Shown piece after piece: positions 2,228 through 20,405 of a DNA stretch of 22,116 nucleotides (position 1 is its first letter; each line of letters opens with the position of its first letter). The stretch lies in IMG/VR virus record IMGVR_UViG_3300043418_000213, positions 1 to 22,116 of that record; one strand, written 5' to 3'. The notes under the pieces were generated by a model. That model was not told the origin of the DNA, did not search any database, and saw nothing but the letters and a program-made list of their open reading frames with translations. Source of the DNA: a virus. A program made the position numbers and the translations under genes.

Positions 2228-3574
2228 ATGATGGCTAACTTCTTTGATAGATTCAAGCGCGAAGATCGCGCCCTCTCCTTCCAGACTGTCTGGGGAATGG
2301 GCGGCGATGTTGTCATGGGCAACCAGTCCAACACCCGAGTGGATGCCAAGACAGCCTTCTCGCTGATTCCAGTCTTTAGCGCAATCAGCCTAATCTCGGA
2401 CACTATTTCGACTCTGCCGGTTGATGCCTTCCAGCGCATTGATGGCAACCGCAAACCATACCGCCCTCGCCCTAGCTGGGTAGACCAGCCAGATGTTGAC
2501 CAGACTCGCTCAGGTCACTATGGCTCGGTGTTGGTTTCCATGCTTATCTGGGGCAATGCTTATGTCCGCATCTTCCGCAACAGCAAGGGTGAGGTTGTCA
2601 ACCTTGTAGTGCTTGACCCTCAGAAGATGGAAGTCACTCGCTCGGCTATTGGCAGCAAGCTCTTTCACTATGAGGGCGAAGCAACCGCACTAACTACCGA
2701 GGACATTGTTCACCTAACTGACCTACTTGAGCCGGGCGCAATCAAGGGCATTAGCCGAGTAGAGCGCTTGCGCGAGGCGCTAGGTCTAGGCATTGCCCTG
2801 CAAGACTTCGCGGCTACCTTCTTTGGACAGGGTGTAACTGGTTCGCTCGTTGCTGAAGTGCCTGGCAACCTAACCCCTGATCAGGCTCGCCAGTTGTCAG
2901 ACTCGATGTCTAACCGCCATGGTGGTTGGCGCAAGTCTGGCCGAGTGCCAGTGCTTACTGGTGGCGCAACCATCAAGGACATCTCTATCCAGAATGATCA
3001 GAGCCAGTTCATTGAGTCGCGCCGATTCTTTGTCGAAGAGGTTGCTCGCCTATTCAATATCCCTCTGAGCATGATGGATGTGCCAGGTTCAACCAGTTAT
3101 GCATCTGTTGAGCAAAATGCGATTCAGTTTGTAACTCACACCCTGCGCCCTTTTATTGAAAAGATTGAATGGTCTTATTCGCGCCTACTGCCTGAGCAAG
3201 CCTTCTTGAAGTTCAATGTCGATGGTTTGCTTCGCGGTGACTTCAACAGCCGAATCTCTGCCTACTCAACCAGCCTTCAGTCTGGCTTCATGAGTATCAA
3301 TGATGTGCGCCGCATCGAGGACATGACTCCTGTCGAGGGTGGCGATGTCTACCGAGTCCCACTAGCCAATGTCAACCTTTCAGCTGCTAACTTACCAGAG
3401 CAAGAGGGCAAGATTTCAATGGCTCAGAAGTTGATTGCTGTTGGCTTCGATCCTGCTGCGGTTCTAGCCTCACTTGGCTTGCCAGCAGTTGCCCATACAG
3501 GTGTGCCTTCAACTCAGTTGCAGGGAGTCAACACCATTGACCCTGAGAATCCTGCTTCAGTTTATGGGGTCTAA
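2228..3574 (+). CDS. Portal protein, HK97 family
   Basis: A 448-aa protein that forms the dodecameric ring at the head vertex through which DNA passes. Typical HK97-portal features are: AFSLIPVFSAISLISDTISTLP (about 43-64); a GHYGSVLVSMLIWGNAYVRIFRN segment; the stem and clip region around GISRVERLREALGLGIALQDF; and the C-terminal stretch FFVEEVARLFNIPLSMM, then SYASVEQNAIQFVTHTLRPFIEKIE. There are tandem ATGs at 2228 and 2231, and either could start translation. A weak AGG precedes them. The stop overlaps the next ATG as TAATG, which implies coupling. Upstream terminase and downstream protease confirm a standard head operon. Confidence 0.95.
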   Translation: MMANFFDRFKREDRALSFQTVWGMGGDVVMGNQSNTRVDAKTAFSLIPVFSAISLISDTISTLPVDAFQRIDGNRKPYRPRPSWVDQPDVDQTRSGHYGSVLVSMLIWGNAYVRIFRNSKGEVVNLVVLDPQKMEVTRSAIGSKLFHYEGEATALTTEDIVHLTDLLEPGAIKGISRVERLREALGLGIALQDFAATFFGQGVTGSLVAEVPGNLTPDQARQLSDSMSNRHGGWRKSGRVPVLTGGATIKDISIQNDQSQFIESRRFFVEEVARLFNIPLSMMDVPGSTSYASVEQNAIQFVTHTLRPFIEKIEWSYSRLLPEQAFLKFNVDGLLRGDFNSRISAYSTSLQSGFMSINDVRRIEDMTPVEGGDVYRVPLANVNLSAANLPEQEGKISMAQKLIAVGFDPAAVLASLGLPAVAHTGVPSTQLQGVNTIDPENPASVYGV

Positions 3575-3837
3575 TGAGTATCACTTCTGGACAACTATCG
3601 GTCGGAACTACTGCTATCGAGATATCGGGTCATTCGGTAAGTCATATTAAGACAACTGTTCGCAATCATGAGCATGGTGCGGGTAAGAAGATATGGGTTG
3701 GTAATTCAACTGTCACTCCTCTAACAGGGATGCTTCTTGGAGATCAAGCTATTACCTTTTTACTAAACCCGATGGAACACCTCCATGCTGTAACAGATTC
3801 TGGAACTGTTTTACTTGGCTTTGTTAGGCAGGGTTAA
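3574..3837 (+). CDS. Small beta-rich protein between portal and protease, possible head decoration or accessory protein
   Basis: An 87-aa protein with no signal peptide or membrane segment. It alternates short beta-prone stretches (SGQLSVGTTAIEISG, KTTVRNHEHGAGKKIWVGN, GTVLLGFVRQG) and has a central TPLTGMLLGDQAITFLLNPMEHLHAVT. I recall similar small proteins of the type 'VGTTA.QI....TLHN....IYLG...VT...G..L......L.LNPGE.LYAV' in phage head operons, usually unassigned. A decoration or accessory virion role is inference. It is coupled on both sides by TAATG overlaps. By eye it is richer in A+T than the portal gene. Confidence 0.6.
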   Translation: MSITSGQLSVGTTAIEISGHSVSHIKTTVRNHEHGAGKKIWVGNSTVTPLTGMLLGDQAITFLLNPMEHLHAVTDSGTVLLGFVRQG

Positions 3838-5396
3838 TGCCTTATTCAATCACTGATAAGAATCCTGATTGCTTAGGCTGGGCTGTTGTTGACCCGGCAA
3901 ACAAGGTCTTTGGTTGTCACACTACTAAGGCTTCGGCAATCAAACAGGCTGTCGCTATCTCTCTAGCAACAGATGAGCCTTTTGTTGGTGAGCGCAAGGC
4001 TGATGGTAATCCAATCATCATCTGCGATATTGATGGCACTCTCTTGGCTTCAGGTGACCGCCTTATTCAAAAGACTTGGGATTATGTCCAGTCGTTAGAG
4101 GGTGCGCTTTTCATTGTTACAGGCAGACCTGAGTCAGAGCGCGATAAGACCGCTAGTGACCTACACAGCGCCGGTGTGACCTATTCCAGACTTGTGATGA
4201 ATCCTGGCTCATCTGCCGATTCGGTAGAATATAAGAAAGCAACTGCTGAAGCATTATTGAAATCTTATGATGTAGTGGCAGCTGTGGAGAACAATCCCGA
4301 TGCGCTCGCCGCGTATCGCTCACTCGGCATCAAAGCGGTTAACCCTGCTACCTTGCCAGAAGGAAAGAGAATGGCTGAAAACCGCGCAACTCCAGATGAA
4401 CTAGCAACTGGTGACTTTGTTGCTTGGCTTGTAGAAACCGAGTCTTATGCAGGGCAGGTTGTGTCAGTAGATGGCGCAACTACCATTGTCCGCATCTGGG
4501 ATGAAGATGATGAGTGCGACTGCTGCGAGGACTGCTGGGAACAGGGCGATCTGAATGTCTTGGTTGCTACTGAGGCAATCCAGCCAATCGAGCCTCTAAT
4601 GGTTTGTGACTGTGAAGCAATGGCTATGCCCCTTCAGGGTTCGACTGTGATCCCAACTCGCGACAAGTGGATTCGCGCAGCTTGGAAAATCAAGGCAAAA
4701 CTCGAAGGCCATGAAGAGCGCGCACTAGGTAAGGGCGAGATTCGCACCAACCATATCGAACTTCGCGCAGAAGGCGATGGTCGCACCTTCACCGGCTATG
4801 CTGCTGTTTTCAATGAGCCAAGCCTCCCACTACCATTCACCGAGATTGTTCAGCCTGGTGCTTTCAAGCGCTCGCTTCAGTCGCGCAACCGCATGATGCT
4901 GCTCTGGAATCATGACACCTCAAACCCTCTAGCCTCAACTCGCAATGGTTCGCTTCAGATGGTTGAAGATGCTCGCGGTCTAAAGGTCACAGCAACCTTG
5001 CCGGACACTACCCTCGGCCGCGATATCGCTGAGTTGGTTCGCACAGGTGTTGTCGATGCCATGAGCTTTGGCTTCTCAGTCAAGCGCGATTCTTGGTCAC
5101 AGGATGGAAATACTCGCTACCTTGAGGATGTCAGCCTTTATGAAGTCAGCCTTGTTTCGACCCCTGCTTATGAGCAGACCTCTGGCACAGTATCAGTTCG
5201 ATCAACCGATGGCTTGTCAGCAGATGCCCTAGCCGTTGCGCTTCAGAAGTTGGAAGAGGGCGAAGAATTGGATGCCAGCCAGAGCGAAATGATGAAGGAT
5301 GTCATCGAGCGTCTATCTGGTAAGGTTGAAGAACCAGAGGGTGATGTCACTGCCCTTTACAAAAAGAAGCTAGTTCTAGCAGAGATGGGCAACTAA
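3837..5396 (+). CDS. Capsid maturation (prohead) protease with embedded HAD phosphatase-like domain
   Basis: A 519-aa multidomain protein. Residues 1-50 hold a small motif (GWAVVDP...VFGCHTTKASAIKQ) that I associate with actinophage protease ORFs. Residues about 58-177 look like a HAD phosphatase: DIDGT (D64, D66), VTGRPE (T95), a Lys near 133, and ENNPDA (E151, D155). Residues about 185-255 look like an SH3/Tudor-like segment (GDFVAW...GQVVSVD) interrupted by a Cys/acid-rich patch with C227, C229, C230 and C233, plus C257 and C259 downstream. Residues about 303-456 are a serine prohead protease of the HK97 S78 family: FTGYAAVFNEPS, LLWNHD with H359, DAMSFGF with S410, and LYEVSLVSTPAY with E436. 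The protease cleaves the MCP delta domain during head maturation. The HAD part is in frame with no stop, so this is a true fusion, not a separate gene. Confidence 0.9.
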   Translation: MPYSITDKNPDCLGWAVVDPANKVFGCHTTKASAIKQAVAISLATDEPFVGERKADGNPIIICDIDGTLLASGDRLIQKTWDYVQSLEGALFIVTGRPESERDKTASDLHSAGVTYSRLVMNPGSSADSVEYKKATAEALLKSYDVVAAVENNPDALAAYRSLGIKAVNPATLPEGKRMAENRATPDELATGDFVAWLVETESYAGQVVSVDGATTIVRIWDEDDECDCCEDCWEQGDLNVLVATEAIQPIEPLMVCDCEAMAMPLQGSTVIPTRDKWIRAAWKIKAKLEGHEERALGKGEIRTNHIELRAEGDGRTFTGYAAVFNEPSLPLPFTEIVQPGAFKRSLQSRNRMMLLWNHDTSNPLASTRNGSLQMVEDARGLKVTATLPDTTLGRDIAELVRTGVVDAMSFGFSVKRDSWSQDGNTRYLEDVSLYEVSLVSTPAYEQTSGTVSVRSTDGLSADALAVALQKLEEGEELDASQSEMMKDVIERLSGKVEEPEGDVTALYKKKLVLAEMGN

Positions 5397-5551
5397 TGGC
5401 TACCAAAGAAGATATTGCAATCGCTATTGCTGTTGTCAAGGAGATTTCGGGTAACCCAGACTCAGGCGCAATCAAAGAACTAATCGACCTACTAGACTCC
5501 AGCACCGCGCCCAAAGAAGTGCGCATCATTGGTGCTGCTGAGAAGCGCTAA
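5396..5551 (+). CDS. 51-aa protein at the end of the head operon
   Basis: ATG at 5396 overlaps the protease stop (TAATG). The frame runs 51 codons to TAA at 5549-5551. The product is MATKEDIAIAIAVVKEISGN, then a short acidic-amphipathic helix (GAIKELIDLLDSS) and a C-terminus ending in EVRIIGAAEKR. It has no membrane segment. Similar short alanine-rich proteins ending in a basic AEKR-like tail occur beside capsid genes in actinophages, as far as I recall, with no known function. Coupling to the protease and the terminator 17 bases downstream support a real gene. Confidence 0.7.
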   Translation: MATKEDIAIAIAVVKEISGNPDSGAIKELIDLLDSSTAPKEVRIIGAAEKR

Positions 5552-5568
5552 CCTTATCTAGCGCATCG

Positions 5569-5610
5569 CCCCCCGAGAGTTATTCCCTTTCGCTCGGGGG
5601 GTTCTCTCAT
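5569..5610 (+). terminator. Intrinsic terminator closing the head operon
   Basis: A 9-bp GC-rich stem pairs CCCCCCGAG (5569-5577) with CTCGGGGGG (5593-5601). The loop is 15 bases and a pyrimidine-rich TTCTCTC tail follows. It lies between the 51-aa gene and the MCP promoter, so it separates two transcription units. Confidence 0.85.
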
Positions 5611-5638
5611 GCCCTGAAGCGACTATGTAGCAACCTTG

Positions 5639-5644
5639 TAGAAT
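5639..5644 (+). promoter_or_regulatory. Promoter of the major capsid gene (-10 TAGAAT)
   Basis: TAGAAT followed by AG repeats the TAGAATAG octamer found at three other promoter positions in this window. Here the predicted start is about 5651, leaving an 81-base leader before the MCP ATG. Unlike the leaderless copies, that leader ends in a good ribosome binding site. It lies just after a terminator, as expected for a separately controlled, strongly expressed capsid gene. No clear -35 was found. Confidence 0.7.
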
Positions 5645-5731
5645 AGTTACAGGTTCAGAGTTTGCTCGGCCTCTAGTCTGTTCAGCGTCAGCGCGGCGGA
5701 ATCCCTATTCAAACAAACAAAGGAATGACTA

Positions 5732-6883
5732 ATGTCAGAGTTCATCAAGAACCAGGCAGAAGTTCGCTCAAACCTTATCGCACAGATGCGCGAAGTTATT
5801 GACTTCGCCGATGCCGAGAAGCGCGGACTAACTGCCGAAGAAACCCAGAAGATTGACCGCCTAGAGGCAGACATCGCACAGCGCGATGCATCAATCGCAA
5901 CCGCACAGCGAGTCGAAGAGCGCGCAGCTCAGGCTTCAGAGGCTGCTGCTTCATTCGCACCTGCAACCGCTTCAGTATCAGGCGATGCAGACTTGCTTCG
6001 CGCAATTGCTCGCGGTGAAGTTCGCGGTCACGAGTTCGCTCGCGAATCTCGCGCGGCTCTTGTTCCATCAGCAAACACTGTTGGCGCATCTTTCTACAAC
6101 CGAGTTTTTGAAATCGCTCAGTTGGTTGGCCCACTGCTAACCACCTCAGAGATCTTCTCAACCACCTCGGGCGAGAACCTTGTTATCCCAACCGTAACCG
6201 CAACCTCAACTTCAGGTTCAGTTGCCGCTGGTTCAGCAATCTCAGAGAGCAACCCAACCTTCTCGTCAATCACCCTTGGCGCTGAGAAGTATGGTGCGCT
6301 TGTATCACTTGCTTCAGAGCTTGTTGCAGATGCCGGCTTCGACATCACCGCATACATCGCTCAGGAACTAGGTAAGTCAATCGGTCTACAGACCAACTCA
6401 GTTCTAACCACCAAGTTGGTTGGCGCTGCTGGTTCTGCTGTTACCGGAGGAACTGGTGTATCAGGTGCTGCTTCATATGAGAACATCATTGACCTTGTTT
6501 ATTCGGTAGATGGCTCTGCTCGTCAGCTTCCTTCAGCCGGATTCCACATGGCAACCACCGCAATCGCTTCAGCTCGCAAGCTAAAGGATGGCGCAGGTAA
6601 CTATATCTGGACCAACTCAGCAGTTCCTGGTCAGCCAGCAACCCTCCTAGGCTTCAATGTCTTCGAGAACCCTGCAATGGCTGCTGTAGCAACTGGCGCT
6701 AAGTCAATTGTTTTCGGTGACCTAGCATCATTCAAGGTTCGCATCGCTGGCGGAGTTCGTGTTGACCAGTCGGTTGACTACGCCTTCAACAACGATGTTG
6801 TGACCTACCGCGGTCTAACTCGCCTAGATGGTGGATTGGTTCACGCCAGCCACATTAAGTTCTTCAAGGGCGGCGCAAGCTAA
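5732..6883 (+). CDS. Major capsid protein, HK97 fold
   Basis: A 383-aa protein that forms the icosahedral shell. Residues about 1-85 are a coiled-coil, charged N-terminal region (VIDFADAEKRGLTAEETQKIDRLEADIAQRDA), equivalent to the HK97 delta/scaffold domain that the upstream protease removes. The shell domain follows: FYNRVFEIAQLVGPLLTTSEIFST, SGENLVIPTVTAT, then EKYGALVSLASELVADAGFDITAYIAQELGKSIG in the spine-helix region, and the late GFNVFENPAMA / IVFGDLASFKVRIAGGVRVDQS / YRGLTRLDGG motifs typical of Phage_capsid proteins. AAAGGA precedes the ATG by 7 bases. The gene has its own promoter and terminator. Confidence 0.95.
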   Translation: MSEFIKNQAEVRSNLIAQMREVIDFADAEKRGLTAEETQKIDRLEADIAQRDASIATAQRVEERAAQASEAAASFAPATASVSGDADLLRAIARGEVRGHEFARESRAALVPSANTVGASFYNRVFEIAQLVGPLLTTSEIFSTTSGENLVIPTVTATSTSGSVAAGSAISESNPTFSSITLGAEKYGALVSLASELVADAGFDITAYIAQELGKSIGLQTNSVLTTKLVGAAGSAVTGGTGVSGAASYENIIDLVYSVDGSARQLPSAGFHMATTAIASARKLKDGAGNYIWTNSAVPGQPATLLGFNVFENPAMAAVATGAKSIVFGDLASFKVRIAGGVRVDQSVDYAFNNDVVTYRGLTRLDGGLVHASHIKFFKGGAS

Positions 6884-6900
6884 GCCTTGAAGTAATAACT

Positions 6901-6941
6901 GGAAGCCCCTCGGTGTGCGTAGGCATCGGGGGGTTTCCTCT
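6901..6941 (+). terminator. Terminator after the major capsid gene
   Basis: A long imperfect hairpin pairs 6901-6915 (starting GGAAGCCCCTCGG) with 6924-6938 (ending GGGGGGTTTCC). There are about 15 pairs including three G-T pairs, with an 8-base loop at 6916-6923. A T-rich tail follows. It lies 18 bases after the MCP stop. Confidence 0.82.
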
Positions 6942-6957
6942 TACCCTGATACTTTGC

Positions 6958-6963
6958 TAGAGT
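6958..6963 (+). promoter_or_regulatory. Candidate promoter for the accessory glycan unit (-10 TAGAGT)
   Basis: TAGAGT fits TANNNT and lies directly after the MCP terminator. A start near 6970 gives a leader of about 16 bases that still includes the AAGAAAGGG ribosome binding site before the ATG at 6986. No -35 is evident. Confidence 0.45.
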
Positions 6964-6985
6964 GTTATCAAAGAAAGGGAATCTA

Positions 6986-7309
6986 ATGGATAAAGACAAT
7001 TCTGAAACTATTGAGTTTATGACTATGGGCTATCTTGCCGTTGACTCTGCCCAGTTATCTATCTCTGATCCTTGCTATTGGGATGATAAGCGCCTAAATT
7101 ATGACAAGGTGATTGAAGCTGCTGAGGCTATGGATTCTAGCGAGGAGATTTGCTACACTCTTGGCGATTTACCTCAAGCTAATGCAAGCATGGCCCTTGT
7201 CTTTCCAACTATAGACGGCGATGGTATTTATGAAGTTTCATCTGTCTGGAATGGTGACCGATTGCTTGGCTACTTTGTTTCAGTAGAGAGCGAGAGATTA
7301 AATGGCTAA
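6986..7309 (+). CDS. Phage protein with VDSxQLxISDPCY motif, function unknown
   Basis: The ATG at 6986 is preferred over an in-frame GTG at 6962. AAGAAAGGG lies about 6 bases before the ATG, while the GTG overlaps the likely -10 box. The product is 107 aa, acidic, soluble and without a signal peptide. It contains GYLAVDSAQLSISDPCYWDD near residue 15 and DGDGIYEVSSVWNGDRLLGYFV near the C-terminus. I recall this pairing of a 'VDSGQ..I.DPCY' motif with a 'GDG.Y.V' motif in many uncharacterised phage proteins. No reaction can be assigned. It overlaps the next gene by 8 bases, so it is translated with the glycosyltransferases. Confidence 0.75.
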   Translation: MDKDNSETIEFMTMGYLAVDSAQLSISDPCYWDDKRLNYDKVIEAAEAMDSSEEICYTLGDLPQANASMALVFPTIDGDGIYEVSSVWNGDRLLGYFVSVESERLNG

Positions 7310-8498
7310 GCCTAAAATCGAAGGTCTTATCTCTGTATGGTCTAACTCACCTGATCAACCAACAGGCTACGGTCAGCAAGCTGGCTACCTAGTTGACCGC
7401 TTGAAGCGCGATGGCGCAAAGGTAGCAGCCTTGTCTAACTATGGGCTTGAGGGCAACCTAAGCACCTATCAGACTAAGTTCGGTAGCATCCCTCATTATC
7501 CGCGAGGCTCTGAAGCCTACTCGAATGATGTCGGCCCTATGCATCATGCTCACTTCAATGCACAGCACCCTAACTTGCCAGCCGCTCTTATCGGCTTGTA
7601 TGACTGCTGGGTAATTCAGGGCAAGCAGTGGGAGAAGGTCAATATGGGTTGGTGGACTCCGATTGACCACCTCACCATGCCTCCGAAGGTTGAAACCTTT
7701 TTGCGCCAGAGCCATGTCACCCCAATTGCTATGGCCCCAAATGGTGTGCGCCAGATGGAAGCCAAGGGGATTGAGTGCGAGTATGTGCCGCATGGTATTG
7801 ATACCAAGATTTTCAAGCCGACAGCAACCATTGAGGGGCAACCTGCTCGCGACTATATGGGGCTGAAGGATGAGTTTGTGGTTGGCATGGTTTCAGCTAA
7901 TAAGGCTTCAGGGCTGATTCACCGCAAGGCTTTCAGCGAGAATCTACTGGCTTTCAGCATCTTCCGCCAGAAGCACCCTGATGCTGTCTTGTATATGCAC
8001 ACTGATCCGCTTGGAACTCAGGGCGGTTGGCAGTTGCTTCCTATGCTTGCTGCCTATGGGATTCCTAAAGAGGCTGTGATGTTTCCGCCTTTTGTGGATT
8101 ACCGCTATGGCATGAGCCAGCAAACTCTGGCTGGGCTTTACAGTGCAATGGATGTCTTGCTTGCTACCTCTTATGGAGAAGGCTTTGGGATTCCCTGTAT
8201 AGAGTCCTTATCCTGTGGCACGAGGGTAATCGGCTCTAGCTGGGGCGCAACCCCTGACCTTCTATCTGAGGACTCTTGGATGGTTGAGGGGCAACCGCTT
8301 TGGGATGCTGGGCAAAATGCTTTGTGGCAGATGCCTCTAGTTCCTTCGATTGTCAATGCACTTGAGGAGGCTTACCAAGCCGAGCGCGGAACTAGCCAGG
8401 TTGCTATTGATTTCGCTAAACAGTTCGATGTCGAAACTGTCTGGCAGAAGCACTGGCTTCCGGTCATTGGTCGCTTGCTAGAGAAGTCGAATAAATGA
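7302..8498 (+). CDS. GT-B fold glycosyltransferase, GT4-like (group 1)
   Basis: A 398-aa cytoplasmic enzyme predicted to move a sugar from a nucleotide-sugar donor to an unknown acceptor. The N-terminal lobe begins with a beta strand and a glycine loop (SVWSNSPDQPTGYGQQAGYL). The C-terminal lobe has FVVGMVSANKASG near 192-204, the donor-binding E-x7-E motif EGFGIPCIE (E293 and E301), then SLSCGTRVIGSSWGATPDLLS. VPHGIDTKIF at 162-171 is the usual GT4 inter-domain motif. It is embedded in a phage late region beside a second glycosyltransferase and a cytidylyltransferase. This suggests glycosylation of virion protein or host surface. The acceptor cannot be deduced. Confidence 0.9.
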   Translation: MAKPKIEGLISVWSNSPDQPTGYGQQAGYLVDRLKRDGAKVAALSNYGLEGNLSTYQTKFGSIPHYPRGSEAYSNDVGPMHHAHFNAQHPNLPAALIGLYDCWVIQGKQWEKVNMGWWTPIDHLTMPPKVETFLRQSHVTPIAMAPNGVRQMEAKGIECEYVPHGIDTKIFKPTATIEGQPARDYMGLKDEFVVGMVSANKASGLIHRKAFSENLLAFSIFRQKHPDAVLYMHTDPLGTQGGWQLLPMLAAYGIPKEAVMFPPFVDYRYGMSQQTLAGLYSAMDVLLATSYGEGFGIPCIESLSCGTRVIGSSWGATPDLLSEDSWMVEGQPLWDAGQNALWQMPLVPSIVNALEEAYQAERGTSQVAIDFAKQFDVETVWQKHWLPVIGRLLEKSNK

Positions 8499-8545
8499 AA
8501 ATGACTTTTATGAATATCTTTAAACTAGTTTTGGTTTTCTCTTGA
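8495..8545 (+). CDS. 16-codon minicistron bridging two glycosyltransferase genes
   Basis: ATG at 8495 overlaps the upstream TGA (ATGA). Sixteen codons (MKMTFMNIFKLVLVFS) end in TGA at 8543-8545, which overlaps the TTG start of the next gene (TTGA). There is no Shine-Dalgarno sequence before that TTG. The arrangement would let ribosomes leaving the first gene reach the second by two steps of termination-reinitiation. It may be a leader device rather than a functional peptide. Chance cannot be excluded at this length. Confidence 0.4.
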   Translation: MKMTFMNIFKLVLVFS

Positions 8546-9195
8546 TTCCGGTTCTTGGTTTCTGCACTCTGAAGAGGTTTGATCTTGCTGATAGGTTGCT
8601 GCGCTCTATTGATTATCCTGTTGAGCATCTGGTTATCATTGACAACTCGGGGCTAGGCTCAACCGGCTACACACCTAAGAAGCCCGATTCTGTTAAACAC
8701 CTGTGGGTTCTCAGGATGCCTTTTGGGCTGGGTTTGGTTGGTGCTTGGAATCTGATTATCAAAGCAACCCCTTATGCCCCCTATTGGCTTCTGGTGAATG
8801 ATGATGCCTATTTTGAGGCTGGGGCTTTGGAGAAGATTGCTAGCGAGGTGGATACTCAGGCTCTGAACTTCTTGCAAATTAACACAGCCTGGTCTGCTGT
8901 TGTTTTTGGTGAGGGCATGGTTGACAAGGTTGGGCTTTATGACGAGCGCTTCTATCCGCTCTACTTTGATGATAATGACCTTGAGCGCCGAGTGCGCCAT
9001 CATGGTGTGCCTATCAAGACCATTGATGCGGTTGTTCACCATGACAACAGTTCGACTCTAAACAGCGGTTATCAAGAAGTAAATCATCGCAGTTATAGTG
9101 CAAATCAGAATCTACTTACTCACAAAGAGCATGAAGGAGATTTCACTCAGGGCGAGTGGACTCTAAAAACTAGGAGGCATAACCGATGGGATTAA
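8542..9195 (+). CDS. GT-A fold glycosyltransferase, family 2-like, TTG start
   Basis: A 217-aa protein starting with the first Rossmann strand IPVLGFCTLKR. VEHLVIIDNSG (28-37), an AWNLII segment, the metal/donor motif LLVNDDAYF (D87, D88) and a later FDDNDLERR (143-151) followed by VVHHDNS (His166, His167) are standard GT2 elements. The reading frame is closed by TAA at 8521-8523 and the only start before the fold begins is TTG 8542, so that start is well supported. The C-terminus overlaps the cytidylyltransferase by 10 bases. It has no membrane segment. The acceptor is unknown. Joint presence with a GT4-like enzyme suggests a disaccharide or serial glycosylation. Confidence 0.88.
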   Translation: MIPVLGFCTLKRFDLADRLLRSIDYPVEHLVIIDNSGLGSTGYTPKKPDSVKHLWVLRMPFGLGLVGAWNLIIKATPYAPYWLLVNDDAYFEAGALEKIASEVDTQALNFLQINTAWSAVVFGEGMVDKVGLYDERFYPLYFDDNDLERRVRHHGVPIKTIDAVVHHDNSSTLNSGYQEVNHRSYSANQNLLTHKEHEGDFTQGEWTLKTRRHNRWD

Positions 9196-9620
9196 CTGTT
9201 TATACTGGTGGATCCTTCGATCTCTTCCATTCTGGCCATGTTGCTTTTCTAAAGCGGTGCAAGGAACTAGCAGGTAAAAATGGCACAGTAATTGTTAGCC
9301 TAAATAGCGATGAGTTTATTCTCGCCTATAAAGGCAAGGGCTTAGTGATGAATTATCAAGAGCGCAAGGCAGTTTTGGAATCTTGCCGATATGTCGATTA
9401 TGTCATTATGAACTTTGATGGGGCAGATAGCACAACTGCTATTGAAACAACTGGCCCTGATCTGATTGTGATTGGTTCGGACTGGGCTAGGCGCGACTAT
9501 TACAAACAGATGAACTTTACTCAAGACTGGCTGGATGAGCGAGGCATTGGTCTTGTTTACCTGCCTTATACCGCTGGCATCAGCTCGACTGAGATAAAGG
9601 CAAGACTAGCCAAGCGATAG
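9186..9620 (+). CDS. Cytidylyltransferase-like nucleotidyltransferase (TagD/RfaE-C type)
   Basis: A 144-aa enzyme of the HxGH nucleotidyltransferase superfamily. VYTGGSFDLFHSGHVAFLKRC contains HSGH (H15-H18), RKAVLESCRYVDYV lies at 60-73 and the closing GISSTEIK (131-138) is the ISSTxI(R/K) motif that binds the nucleotide. Length and motifs match glycerol-3-phosphate cytidylyltransferase and the adenylyl/cytidylyl domain of heptose synthases. It would activate a polyol phosphate or sugar phosphate as a CDP or ADP derivative. The exact substrate cannot be told. AGGAGG precedes the ATG by 9 bases, the strongest ribosome binding site here. It sits with two glycosyltransferases as a donor-supply partner. 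Confidence 0.88.
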   Translation: MGLTVYTGGSFDLFHSGHVAFLKRCKELAGKNGTVIVSLNSDEFILAYKGKGLVMNYQERKAVLESCRYVDYVIMNFDGADSTTAIETTGPDLIVIGSDWARRDYYKQMNFTQDWLDERGIGLVYLPYTAGISSTEIKARLAKR

Positions 9621-11527: not shown

Positions 11528-12049
11528 CTAGATTGTTTGGAGGCCTGTAAGCCTGAAGTCTGTGCCTTGCAGGATTGCACCGGCGGCTAGGTCTAGCATC
11601 CGCTGAATCTGCTCGGGTGTGTGGCTTGAGTTGGCGAGGATGTCATTGAACTCTTTGCCATTGGTAATCTGCCCATAGGCGAGCCGAAGAACTAGCATCT
11701 GCCAGTATGGGTTGCTGTGAGGGATTGTCTGTGCAGTGATCTGCTCAACTGCCTCGCTGGCGAATGAGATGGTCATATCGATATCGCCGAATAGGTAGCG
11801 CTCTGAATCCATTGCTTCATTGGCAATCTCGAAGTTGTCACCCTCGCTGTCTAGGAAGTTCCAGTAAGCCCACCCGCGCGAATAGTATGAGGTGGTTTCC
11901 AGTTCGCCATCTGTGTATTGGATTAGCTGGGCAACCACTAGACCATGCGAGTCTAGGAATGGACTAACCGGCTGGTAGAGAGTGAAGTCATCGCCGCTTC
12001 TGTGAATGGCTGGCTTGTCGAGAATGTCGGTTGTGTAGATGGTGGTCAT
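11528..12049 (-). CDS. Leftward orphan protein inside the tail module, unknown function
   Basis: A 173-aa acidic soluble protein with no signal peptide or membrane helix. It begins MTTIYTTDILDKPAIHRSGD and has an aromatic-rich middle (ELETTSYYSRGWAYWNFLD). The C-terminal half is helical: PYWQMLVLRLAYGQ, then SHTPEQIQRMLDLAAGAIL. I do not recognise it. It is antisense to all neighbouring tail genes. It has its own ribosome binding site (GGGAGAA 6 bases before the ATG), its own candidate promoter and a shared terminator. That is the layout of a moron, an added gene expressed independently of the lytic programme. Host-interaction roles are possible but unproven. Confidence 0.75.
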   Translation of the reverse strand: MTTIYTTDILDKPAIHRSGDDFTLYQPVSPFLDSHGLVVAQLIQYTDGELETTSYYSRGWAYWNFLDSEGDNFEIANEAMDSERYLFGDIDMTISFASEAVEQITAQTIPHSNPYWQMLVLRLAYGQITNGKEFNDILANSSHTPEQIQRMLDLAAGAILQGTDFRLTGLQTI

Positions 12050-17879: not shown

Positions 17880-19073
17880 ATGCTGGCGCGATTCATCCTC
17901 GCACTCGCCCTAGCCTTCGGTGGTGTTTTCTTAGCCGCCCCTGCACAAGCTGATGAGGTGGCAAGGGTTTGGGAGAACAGCGACATCGGTGTTTATCTCC
18001 CAGAGGGTGTGACCTTCACTGCTGTTTCTGGCTGGTATGGTTCACCAGATGACCCTAACTGTGGGGTTGATGTCACAGGCTACCTAACAAGCATTGCGGT
18101 CGGGCAAAACAGTTTCCAGGTCAATGCGAACAACTCTGTGTTTGGTGACCCTTGCGGTGGTGTTTACAAGGTTCTTATCATTTCTGGCATTGATGCGAAC
18201 TGGCAACAGCCAATCACCGAACCGACACCCGAGCCGACAGCTGAACCGACTAGCGAGCCAACACCTGAACCAACAGCCACACCAGAGCCGACACAACCAC
18301 CAGCGGTGATAGAACCAACCCCACAGCCATCGCCTGAAGTAACACCAGAGCCACAACCCTCATCGCCATCCTCTCAAGATGCTGTTGACCCTATTGTGCC
18401 AGTTGCACCCCCAGTTGTCGAACCTATTGTGACACCGCCAGTTATCGAGCCAGCGCCACAACCGCAACCAATCCCTTATCCTGTCGAGCCAGCGCCTAAG
18501 CCTGAGCCGACCCCTGAACCTGCCCCACCAACTGCCGAATCTGCACCGCCTACTGCTGAACCAGCACCATCTACCCCAGAGCCAGAACCTGCAACCACAG
18601 AACCTGCCCCAGTAGCCCCTGAGCCAGCACCTGAAGCCTCGCCAGCACCAAAGCCGACAGTTGCACCAGCACCACCAGTCGAAGCCTCTAAACCTGTTGA
18701 ACCACCTAAACAGCCAGAGATAAAACTAGACCTCAAAACAGTTGACCCTGCAACAATCAGCCCAGTTCAGCAAGCAGTCATCACTCAGCAAGCCTTTGCA
18801 GTTCTCGCAACAGCCGAACAAGGATCACTAGCCTATGAACAAGCCCTCGAAGCTCTAGCAGTTGTCGCTGAAGCGGATGACCCTGAACTGCCAGCCGAAC
18901 TAGCCGCTATCCCTTTGCTGGGCAATGTCGCTGGCGCGGTCATGGATACCTTCAACAGCATTGGAAATATCGGCGCAGACATTAGCCCTGCCGAGCGCAA
19001 GAAGGGTCAGCAAGTAGTTGTCGGAACAGTCATTGTTGGTCAGATGGCTTCGGTTGCTTTACTAAGGAGATAG
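17880..19073 (+). CDS. Secreted proline-rich protein with C-terminal hydrophobic segment
   Basis: A 397-aa protein. Residues 1-24 are a signal peptide (MLARFILALALAFGGVFLAA, site AQA24|DE). Residues 25-112 form a beta-like domain with C61 and C92, which may form a disulfide. Residues about 113-280 are a Pro/Glu/Thr/Ala-rich spacer with many TPEP, TAEP and EPAP units. Residues 281-397 are helical and acidic, ending in a hydrophobic VVVGTVIVGQMASVALL and RR. The order suggests an exported protein whose spacer crosses the cell wall and whose end may sit in a membrane. I do not recognise the family. Its place in the lysis cassette suggests envelope action, such as spanin-like disruption or exclusion, but this is inference. 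Confidence 0.75.
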   Translation: MLARFILALALAFGGVFLAAPAQADEVARVWENSDIGVYLPEGVTFTAVSGWYGSPDDPNCGVDVTGYLTSIAVGQNSFQVNANNSVFGDPCGGVYKVLIISGIDANWQQPITEPTPEPTAEPTSEPTPEPTATPEPTQPPAVIEPTPQPSPEVTPEPQPSSPSSQDAVDPIVPVAPPVVEPIVTPPVIEPAPQPQPIPYPVEPAPKPEPTPEPAPPTAESAPPTAEPAPSTPEPEPATTEPAPVAPEPAPEASPAPKPTVAPAPPVEASKPVEPPKQPEIKLDLKTVDPATISPVQQAVITQQAFAVLATAEQGSLAYEQALEALAVVAEADDPELPAELAAIPLLGNVAGAVMDTFNSIGNIGADISPAERKKGQQVVVGTVIVGQMASVALLRR

Positions 19074-19276: not shown

Positions 19277-19786
19277 ATGACTTACAACTGGCGCTTGCCC
19301 CTCGATAAAGGATTCAAACTCGGCCCTGCCTTCGGTGTAGTCGACACTTGGCATCCGAATGGTCACAGAGGCACAGACTTCAATGGTGTGCCTGGCGGTG
19401 CGCCTTGCAAGGCTGTTGGCGATGGTGAGATCACCATGAACCAGTTCTCTAAGGTGCTAGGCAATATTGTTGTGGTCAAGGTCGGCAAGTGGTATTTCGG
19501 TTATTGCCACCTAGTCAAGCCAAGCCCCCTCAAGGTAGGAACTAAGGTCAAGTCTGGCGATATTGTTGGTGGTGTTGGAACAACCGGCTCTGCCTCATCT
19601 GGCAATCACCTACACTTTACCCTGTCGCTTGAACCTAATGGTGTCATCGGTGGCAAGGTCTATGACGGCCATGCATTTATTAACAAGATGGCTGCTGCCG
19701 AAAAAAAAGCATCTGCCCAACCGGCTGTGACAACTGCCAGCCCTGCCTCAGTCAAGCACTGCGCGACTTGCGCCTGTAAGGAATAG
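19277..19786 (+). CDS. Endolysin, M23-family zinc endopeptidase
   Basis: A 169-aa peptidoglycan endopeptidase of the LytM/M23 type. The zinc ligands are visible as H30 and D34 in HRGTD, and H113 in NHLHF, with catalytic H78 (YCHL) and H111. The fold also shows the usual PCKAVGDGEI, GNIVVVKVG, LKVGTKVKSGDIVGGVGTTG and SGNHLHF strands. There is no signal peptide and no recognisable cell-wall binding domain. The C-terminal tail (about 138-169) is Ala/Thr-rich and ends with a cysteine cluster (C162, C165, C167). It would cut peptide cross-bridges once the holin opens the membrane. Confidence 0.92.
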   Translation: MTYNWRLPLDKGFKLGPAFGVVDTWHPNGHRGTDFNGVPGGAPCKAVGDGEITMNQFSKVLGNIVVVKVGKWYFGYCHLVKPSPLKVGTKVKSGDIVGGVGTTGSASSGNHLHFTLSLEPNGVIGGKVYDGHAFINKMAAAEKKASAQPAVTTASPASVKHCATCACKE

Positions 19787-19788
19787 AA

Positions 19789-20118
19789 ATGAAAAGAATT
19801 AAAGACGCACTTATCCGCTCTATCGGTGTCATCATGTTCGCCTTCATCCCTGGCATGGCCGCTGGATCGGCAACTGTCGGCTGGTTCATGGGTGGCATCA
19901 TTGGTGTCGCAACTGTGTTCTCGGGCATCATCATCTTTTTGGGTGTGACCTTGGCTTGGGATGCTGATATCTCTGAGAAAGATATTGAGAAGGGTTTCCG
20001 CGCGGCTGTTGCCAAGCAGGATTCACAAGAGGTTCAGGATGCTCTAAAGCTTGACCAGACCGCTGAGGTCAACTGGGCTGAGTTTGGCGATGACGAGGAT
20101 GAAGAACTAAAGCCTTAG
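19789..20118 (+). CDS. Membrane protein with two TM helices and acidic tail
   Basis: A 109-aa protein with AAGGAA about 6 bases before the ATG. A basic start (MKRIKDALIR) precedes hydrophobic segments at about 11-33 (SIGVIMFAFIPGMAAG) and 34-56 (MGGIIGVATVFSGIIIFLGV). Then comes a soluble tail of about 50 residues that is strongly acidic at its end (DDEDEELKP). It may be a second holin, an antiholin or another envelope protein of the cassette. The family is not recognised. Its stop overlaps that of the leftward whiB gene, with no terminator between them. Confidence 0.75.
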   Translation: MKRIKDALIRSIGVIMFAFIPGMAAGSATVGWFMGGIIGVATVFSGIIIFLGVTLAWDADISEKDIEKGFRAAVAKQDSQEVQDALKLDQTAEVNWAEFGDDEDEELKP

Positions 20119-20405
20119 TTTCTTCCAAGCGCTTTCATCTGTCGGCGCTCATGGGCTGTGAGGCCCGCCCAGATACCATGGTCTTCATTAGGTAGCGCAT
20201 ACTCTAAGCACTCTAGTTTCATAGGGCATCGGGCGCAGATTTGTTTAGCCAGCATGATGTCTGTGCCTTTGCTAACTGCCCAATCATCGGGATAGAAAAT
20301 GTCTGGCACTTGTGCGCACTCAGCGCCATCATTAGCCAGAATCGCCTCCATTAGTTTGCGATAGGACTGTTCGGCATCCTGATTGCCGAAGGCGAATATC
20401 TGCAT
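20115..20405 (-). CDS. whiB: WhiB-family Fe-S transcriptional regulator
   Basis: A 96-aa protein with the four cluster cysteines C30, C57, C60 and C66 (C-x26-C-x2-C-x5-C), FYPDD after the first Cys, and the HGIWAGLTAHERR turn (76-88) with the basic stretch after it. All are diagnostic of the WhiB family, which binds a 4Fe-4S cluster and partners the housekeeping sigma factor in Actinobacteria. In mycobacteriophage TM4 a WhiB protein lowers host whiB2 expression and gives superinfection exclusion. A similar role is possible here. It is transcribed leftward and divergent from the recombination operon, so it may control the switch between them. Confidence 0.95.
   Translation of the reverse strand: MQIFAFGNQDAEQSYRKLMEAILANDGAECAQVPDIFYPDDWAVSKGTDIMLAKQICARCPMKLECLEYALPNEDHGIWAGLTAHERRQMKALGRN

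Follow-up and report, generated by a model that had tools for sequence, protein, structure and literature searches.

A HAD phosphatase-like module fused to a phage prohead protease: a candidate cargo enzyme of the phage head

The prohead protease encoded by a viral contig of 22,116 nucleotides (the window, by which we mean that whole stretch of DNA) carries, ahead of its S78 protease domain, a HAD domain that appears from fold modelling and alignments to be complete, intact-looking and Pnkp-like. We favor a scenario in which this domain is a cargo phosphatase taken into the prohead by the protease, detached from it in the course of maturation and delivered into the host. Taken as a whole, this chain of events seems to us evenly balanced between right and wrong; the enzyme itself and its modular fusion we hold with far greater confidence.

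The fused gene occupies the position and frame given by a first-pass annotation made from the sequence alone, and reads as a single open frame with the modules A, HAD, C and S78 protease in that order. It sits between the portal gene (2228-3574), together with the latter's 87-aa neighbour ORF, and the major capsid gene. The features referred to below are as follows, with a slash marking a predicted cut.

3597..4358, plus strand: block exchanged between the window and the related contig L004, with HAD replaced there by module D (blastn breakpoints)
3837..5396, plus strand: whole ORF (A - HAD - C - S78), 519 aa
3837..4001, plus strand: module A, N-terminal domain, residues 1-55, common to phrog_80 head maturation proteases (phrog_80 positions 1-55, E 4.5e-6)
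4005..4364, plus strand: HAD phosphatase domain, residues 57-176, from profile matches and fold model
4026..4040, plus strand: HAD motif I, D64-I-D66-G-T68
4119..4127, plus strand: HAD motif II, T95-G-R97
4233..4235, plus strand: HAD motif III, K133
4287..4292, plus strand: HAD motif IV, E151-N152
4377..4388, plus strand: predicted protease cut E-N-R183/A184, after HAD, from a linker motif
4395..4595, plus strand: module C, residues 187-253, beta-rich, GDFVAW type, with strands from the full-ORF AlphaFold2 model
4713..4724, plus strand: predicted protease cut E-E-R295/A296, before the protease, from a linker motif
4755..5210, plus strand: S78 prohead protease domain, residues 307-458 (H359 codon 4911-4913, S410 codon 5064-5066)
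5732..6883, plus strand: major capsid protein with propeptide (PF05065, protein residues 115-379)
6050..6052, plus strand: R107 codon at the capsid propeptide junction E105-S-R107/A108, a predicted maturation cut with an E-x-R step in relatives

The S78 domain is matched by PF04586 (Peptidase_S78) with an E of 1.4e-44, TIGR01543 also scores above its cut-off, and H359 and S410 are unchanged in all 13 aligned protease sequences, in agreement with the earlier view of an intact protease. A separate protease made from an internal start was considered and rejected, as the four candidate start codons (residues 255-271) show no clear ribosome-binding site by eye. The gene order of the window is also that of Pontimonas phage phiPsal1, whose product belongs with the HK97-family S78 proteases (phrog_80) and resembles the window's in its protease domain, in module A and in the order portal, small ORF, protease, capsid, but has a Cys box and module D where the window has HAD. 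Because of this matching order and of a WhiB-family transcription factor gene in the window (20115-20405, minus strand; PF02467, E 1e-14), an actinobacterial host is suggested.

Several other genes of the window deserve mention in their own right. The stretch from the capsid gene to those for the head-tail connectors (7302-9620) holds a CTP_transf_like gene and two glycosyltransferase-like genes, which possibly serve virion glycosylation; at the matching place phiPsal1 has glycosyltransferases and a methyltransferase. A 173-aa ORF with no Pfam match (11528-12049, minus strand) lies on the opposite strand amid the tail genes, and a proline-rich protein with PEPTPEP repeats (17880-19073) is followed by an M23 peptidase gene (19277-19786).

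The first-pass annotation had proposed that the protease ORF holds a HAD domain, with a motif IV recalling polynucleotide kinase-phosphatase or nucleotidase HADs; profile and structure comparisons bear out a HAD domain of the former kind. Scored within the full-length protein, residues 81-157 match PF03767 (Acid_phosphat_B) above its cut-off (E 2.1e-10) and residues 56-172 match phrog_415, 'polynucleotide kinase' (E 3.2e-15). Against PF25109, the Pnkp 3'-phosphatase family with a curated cut-off of 27.6 bits, the window's HAD reaches 25.6 bits alone and 19.6 bits in the whole protein, and the relative L097 reaches 36.1 bits. AlphaFold2 modelled HAD alone (83 sequences) with a pLDDT of 96.5 and a pTM of 0.90, and gave a pLDDT of about 90 across HAD in the full ORF; the Rossmann-type HAD fold on which the earlier proposal depends is present in the model. 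Its best match in VIA-align is the T4 Pnkp 3'-phosphatase (5uj0; Z 16.9, rmsd 1.9 A, 116 of 119 residues), followed by Pnkp1 (16.6) and a lipin-like Nir2 domain (14.6), with the remaining HADs at 12.7 or below. In a viral structure library, the proteins nearest to the HAD model (TMq 0.89-0.93, 42-48% identity) come from uncultured phages and bear the name 'Prohead protease'. The fusion has therefore been deposited already, for example in UniProt entries A0A6J5NAI8 and A0A6J5S5M9 (uncultured Caudovirales phage), which are known by entry names only.

The catalytic residues were compared across 87 HAD sequences, the window's included. D64, D66, T68, R97 and K133 are invariant, and residue 95 is T with a single S. 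By hhalign, T4 PseT residues D165, D167, R213, K258, D277 and D278 pair with D64, D66, R97, K133, E151 and N152 of the window, respectively, a pairing from which the MAFFT alignment of the 87 sequences departs by one residue at K133. From the set of motif residues named in the first-pass annotation, D64, D66, T95 and K133 stand; motif IV is E151-N152, and D155 was rejected as a catalytic residue, since that position is D in 31 of 76 fused copies. Residue 151 is D or E throughout and residue 152 is N in 81 sequences and D in the other 6, so that the window has N where T4 Pnkp has the second motif IV Asp, D278. Because this Asp is replaced, we use the label Pnkp-like and make no claim of 3'-phosphatase activity, and we also count the replacement against the cargo scenario.

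The window's HAD differs from T4 Pnkp in other respects as well: identity is 16-18%, there is no kinase domain and the domain is fused to a prohead protease. The setting is also unlike that of T4 Pnkp, as no RNA ligase (PF09414) and one PNK-like kinase (PF13671) above cut-off were found in 26 related contigs, which may be incomplete; an RNA-repair cassette with a ligase is unlikely on this evidence.

Because dN/dS for HAD is 0.035-0.194 in 16 pairs, the domain is under strong purifying selection, as expected for a working domain and unlike a drifting linker. It could be argued that the protease uses its N-terminal modules as exchangeable parts for scaffolding or targeting, and that HAD matters for its bulk or its binding surface, with its chemistry incidental. 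The free permutation and exchange of modules ahead of one protease would suit this reading, but the catalytic residues are kept, invariant or nearly so, in sequences down to 38% identity with the window's HAD, and HAD is also found as a separate gene adjoining the protease. We consider it improbable that the chemistry is incidental.

A natural exchange of the module is visible in L004, a close relative of the window. By blastn the two are 93% identical up to position 3597 and 91% identical from 4358 onward, the latter position being residue 174 at the C-terminal edge of HAD; between these points lie, in the window, HAD, module A and the greater part of the 87-aa ORF, and in L004 module D. Block exchange is shown by these breakpoints among close relatives and not, as had been claimed at first, by base composition. 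The claim was of an A+T-rich, acquired block, and it does not hold for HAD, whose GC content of 0.492 is ordinary: other coding segments of 360 nt average 0.509 (sd 0.031), and 23% of them have a GC content equally low or lower. We rejected A+T richness as a sign of acquisition. It is the separate 87-aa ORF that is low in GC (0.428), with module A (0.47) showing a weaker tendency the same way. Nine related contigs without HAD carry no copy elsewhere and 21 HAD-bearing contigs carry exactly one each, although the records in both sets may be incomplete. Because of the L004 swap and of these HAD-less relatives, HAD is a swappable, optional accessory.

This bears on the main rival to our scenario, according to which HAD has its role solely in assembly, where it would repair nicks or 3'-phosphate ends in DNA on its way into the head or would hydrolyse prohead nucleotides, and is gone before the virion is complete, so that it is not injected. 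Such a role would be consistent with the Pnkp-type fold and with the prohead location implied by the protease fusion and by linkage to other head-assembly genes. However, HAD appears to be dispensable for assembly because close relatives without it have no other copy in their contigs. In addition, the ends made by terminase normally carry a 3'-OH. For these reasons we regard a role confined to assembly as unlikely.

The window is a single metagenomic contig, and an assembly artefact or a chance match might be suspected. With at least 73 other contigs carrying the same fusion in open frames, under purifying selection and with a confident fold, we consider this extremely remote. A whole-protein search of viral contigs returned 73 relatives, 27 of which have HAD, and a search with the HAD alignment (patterns from fused copies) reached further relatives. 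HAD and the S78 protease share one ORF in 74 distinct viral contigs, the window included, in 13 module orders; modules A, HAD, C and D recur, and some ORFs add Cys-box and DUF5824 segments. Related phages therefore present the same fusion many times over, and not the protease only. Since the identities of HAD and of the protease are weakly correlated (rho 0.34), the modules have partly separate histories. The fusion was not found in 50,697 phage records searched by tblastn with three HAD-bearing queries, where the matches were PNK genes or module A only, and one scan of bacterial and archaeal genomes yielded three distant HADs and nothing else. No description of a HAD-prohead protease fusion was found in the literature covered, which excludes most subscription journals.

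Some of the variants have features of their own. Further modules in the protease region of L127, L147, L149 and others are the Cys box (CGNC..C..W), which phiPsal1 and L040 have as well, and a DUF5824 segment (PF19141), present in L147. In L097 an A-HAD-D ORF (3337-7029) has no S78 match and a long tail, and is followed by an unassigned ORF and by an ORF of the Zeta_toxin family in which a G-Q-H motif lies close to the start. An ADP-ribosyltransferase suspected by eye in the L097 tail was dropped, as it has no Pfam match.

Our main evidence that HAD may work in or through the head is that it has repeatedly been joined to different head-assembly proteins. We found: (i) a separate HAD-bearing ORF directly upstream of the protease (L123, L148); (ii) a C-terminal fusion of HAD to the protease in one contig (L093/L162); (iii) a 135-aa HAD gene that overlaps the 3' end of the protease gene by 1 nt (L163-L169); (iv) HAD inside an ORF of 800 aa with matches to other families of head proteins (L134) and (v) HAD joined to a coiled-coil-like protein in six contigs (L150, L156-L161), where the fused gene has an S49-family protease gene on one side and, just downstream, a probable capsid gene on the other. 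Alternatively, the enzyme could be an ordinary phosphatase of nucleotides or nucleic acids that works unattached in the infected cell, with fusion or linkage to the protease setting late expression only. The linked yet unfused gene in (iii) is in keeping with this, as are more distant standalone HAD relatives, which lie outside head loci in larger phages and also count against the cargo scenario in that the enzyme need not act in the head. Nevertheless, an enzyme domain has been fused repeatedly and independently to proteins that enter the prohead, with the same-ORF arrangement alone present in 74 contigs, and a free cellular enzyme seems to us rather improbable.

There is precedent for enzyme domains on head proteins. 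Nudix (NudE-like) domains are fused to MuF, to portal or to a capsid-processing serine peptidase, and the authors of that work propose packaging and injection (PMC9503650). The window is similar in having a nucleotide-phosphate enzyme on a head-assembly protein, serine peptidase included, but its enzyme is of the HAD superfamily and belongs to permuted multi-module N-terminal regions. Comparable modular enzyme domains attached to head proteins are those of polyvalent proteins and MuF-fused effectors (PMC5512222). T4 Alt is a further case, and all of these are believed to reach the host along with the DNA. The window's domain shares the tie to a head protein, whereas its carrier is an S78 protease and its ORF is without a toxin domain; HAD is not among the fused domains in the passages of PMC5512222 consulted. 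Enzyme domains on head proteins are known, and what is new is a HAD phosphatase on a prohead protease, in permuted module sets.

Predicted release sites come from a comparison with the capsid protein. In most relatives, the predicted propeptide junction of the capsid protein has an E-x-R step with A or D as the next residue, and E-x-R[ADSNT] occurs 42 times in inter-module linkers against 10.4 expected (sd 3.3) after redundancy reduction; the enrichment obtained without this reduction was discarded, being inflated by relatedness and by a conserved E-x-R at the protease start. The control motifs D.R, E.K and R.E are at chance in the linkers. Self-cutting at E-x-R/A linker steps, which resemble the capsid propeptide junction, is probable but is put forward as a prediction because the motif was chosen post hoc from the data and is enriched inside the protease domain too.

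What the computation establishes is the fold, the catalytic residues, purifying selection, repeated head-gene linkage and exchangeability; enclosure, linker cutting, virion retention, injection and the substrate we infer, in the following way. HAD would be a phosphohydrolase resembling the phosphatase of T4 Pnkp, an accessory that the prohead protease carries at its N-terminal end as a detachable module. Since the protease must be enclosed in the prohead, each copy would bring one phosphatase in with it. During maturation the protease would cut its own linkers at E-x-R/A, releasing a piece, residues 1-183, that comprises module A and the phosphatase. The freed phosphatase would most likely be retained in the virion and enter the host alongside the DNA, and early in infection it may take terminal phosphates off nucleic acids or nucleotides. 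Release or packaging during head maturation would, in our reading, be the best-supported mechanism, and delivery into the host its most likely use, as head-packaged enzymes and the Nudix domains on the peptidase, portal or MuF would suggest by analogy.

A broader and more tentative extension, which we think possible rather than probable, is that loading cargo is a general task of the prohead protease itself across a wide group of phages. Modules that can replace one another, namely HAD, C, D, the Cys box and DUF5824, would be translated ahead of the protease, enclosed with it, cut at E-x-R/A and delivered with the DNA, and HAD would be a virion-borne phosphatase whose targets, as infection begins, are damaged ends of nucleic acids or nucleotide signals. 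The window and L004, a close pair with and without HAD, and the short E-x-R/A linkers make the cargo idea directly testable. Enzymes packaged with phage DNA act ahead of any phage gene expression, and only in a few phages is it known by what route packaged proteins enter the head. By carrying a swappable enzyme, the prohead protease would offer a simple route for loading and release, and the arrangement would predict where other capsid cargo sits.
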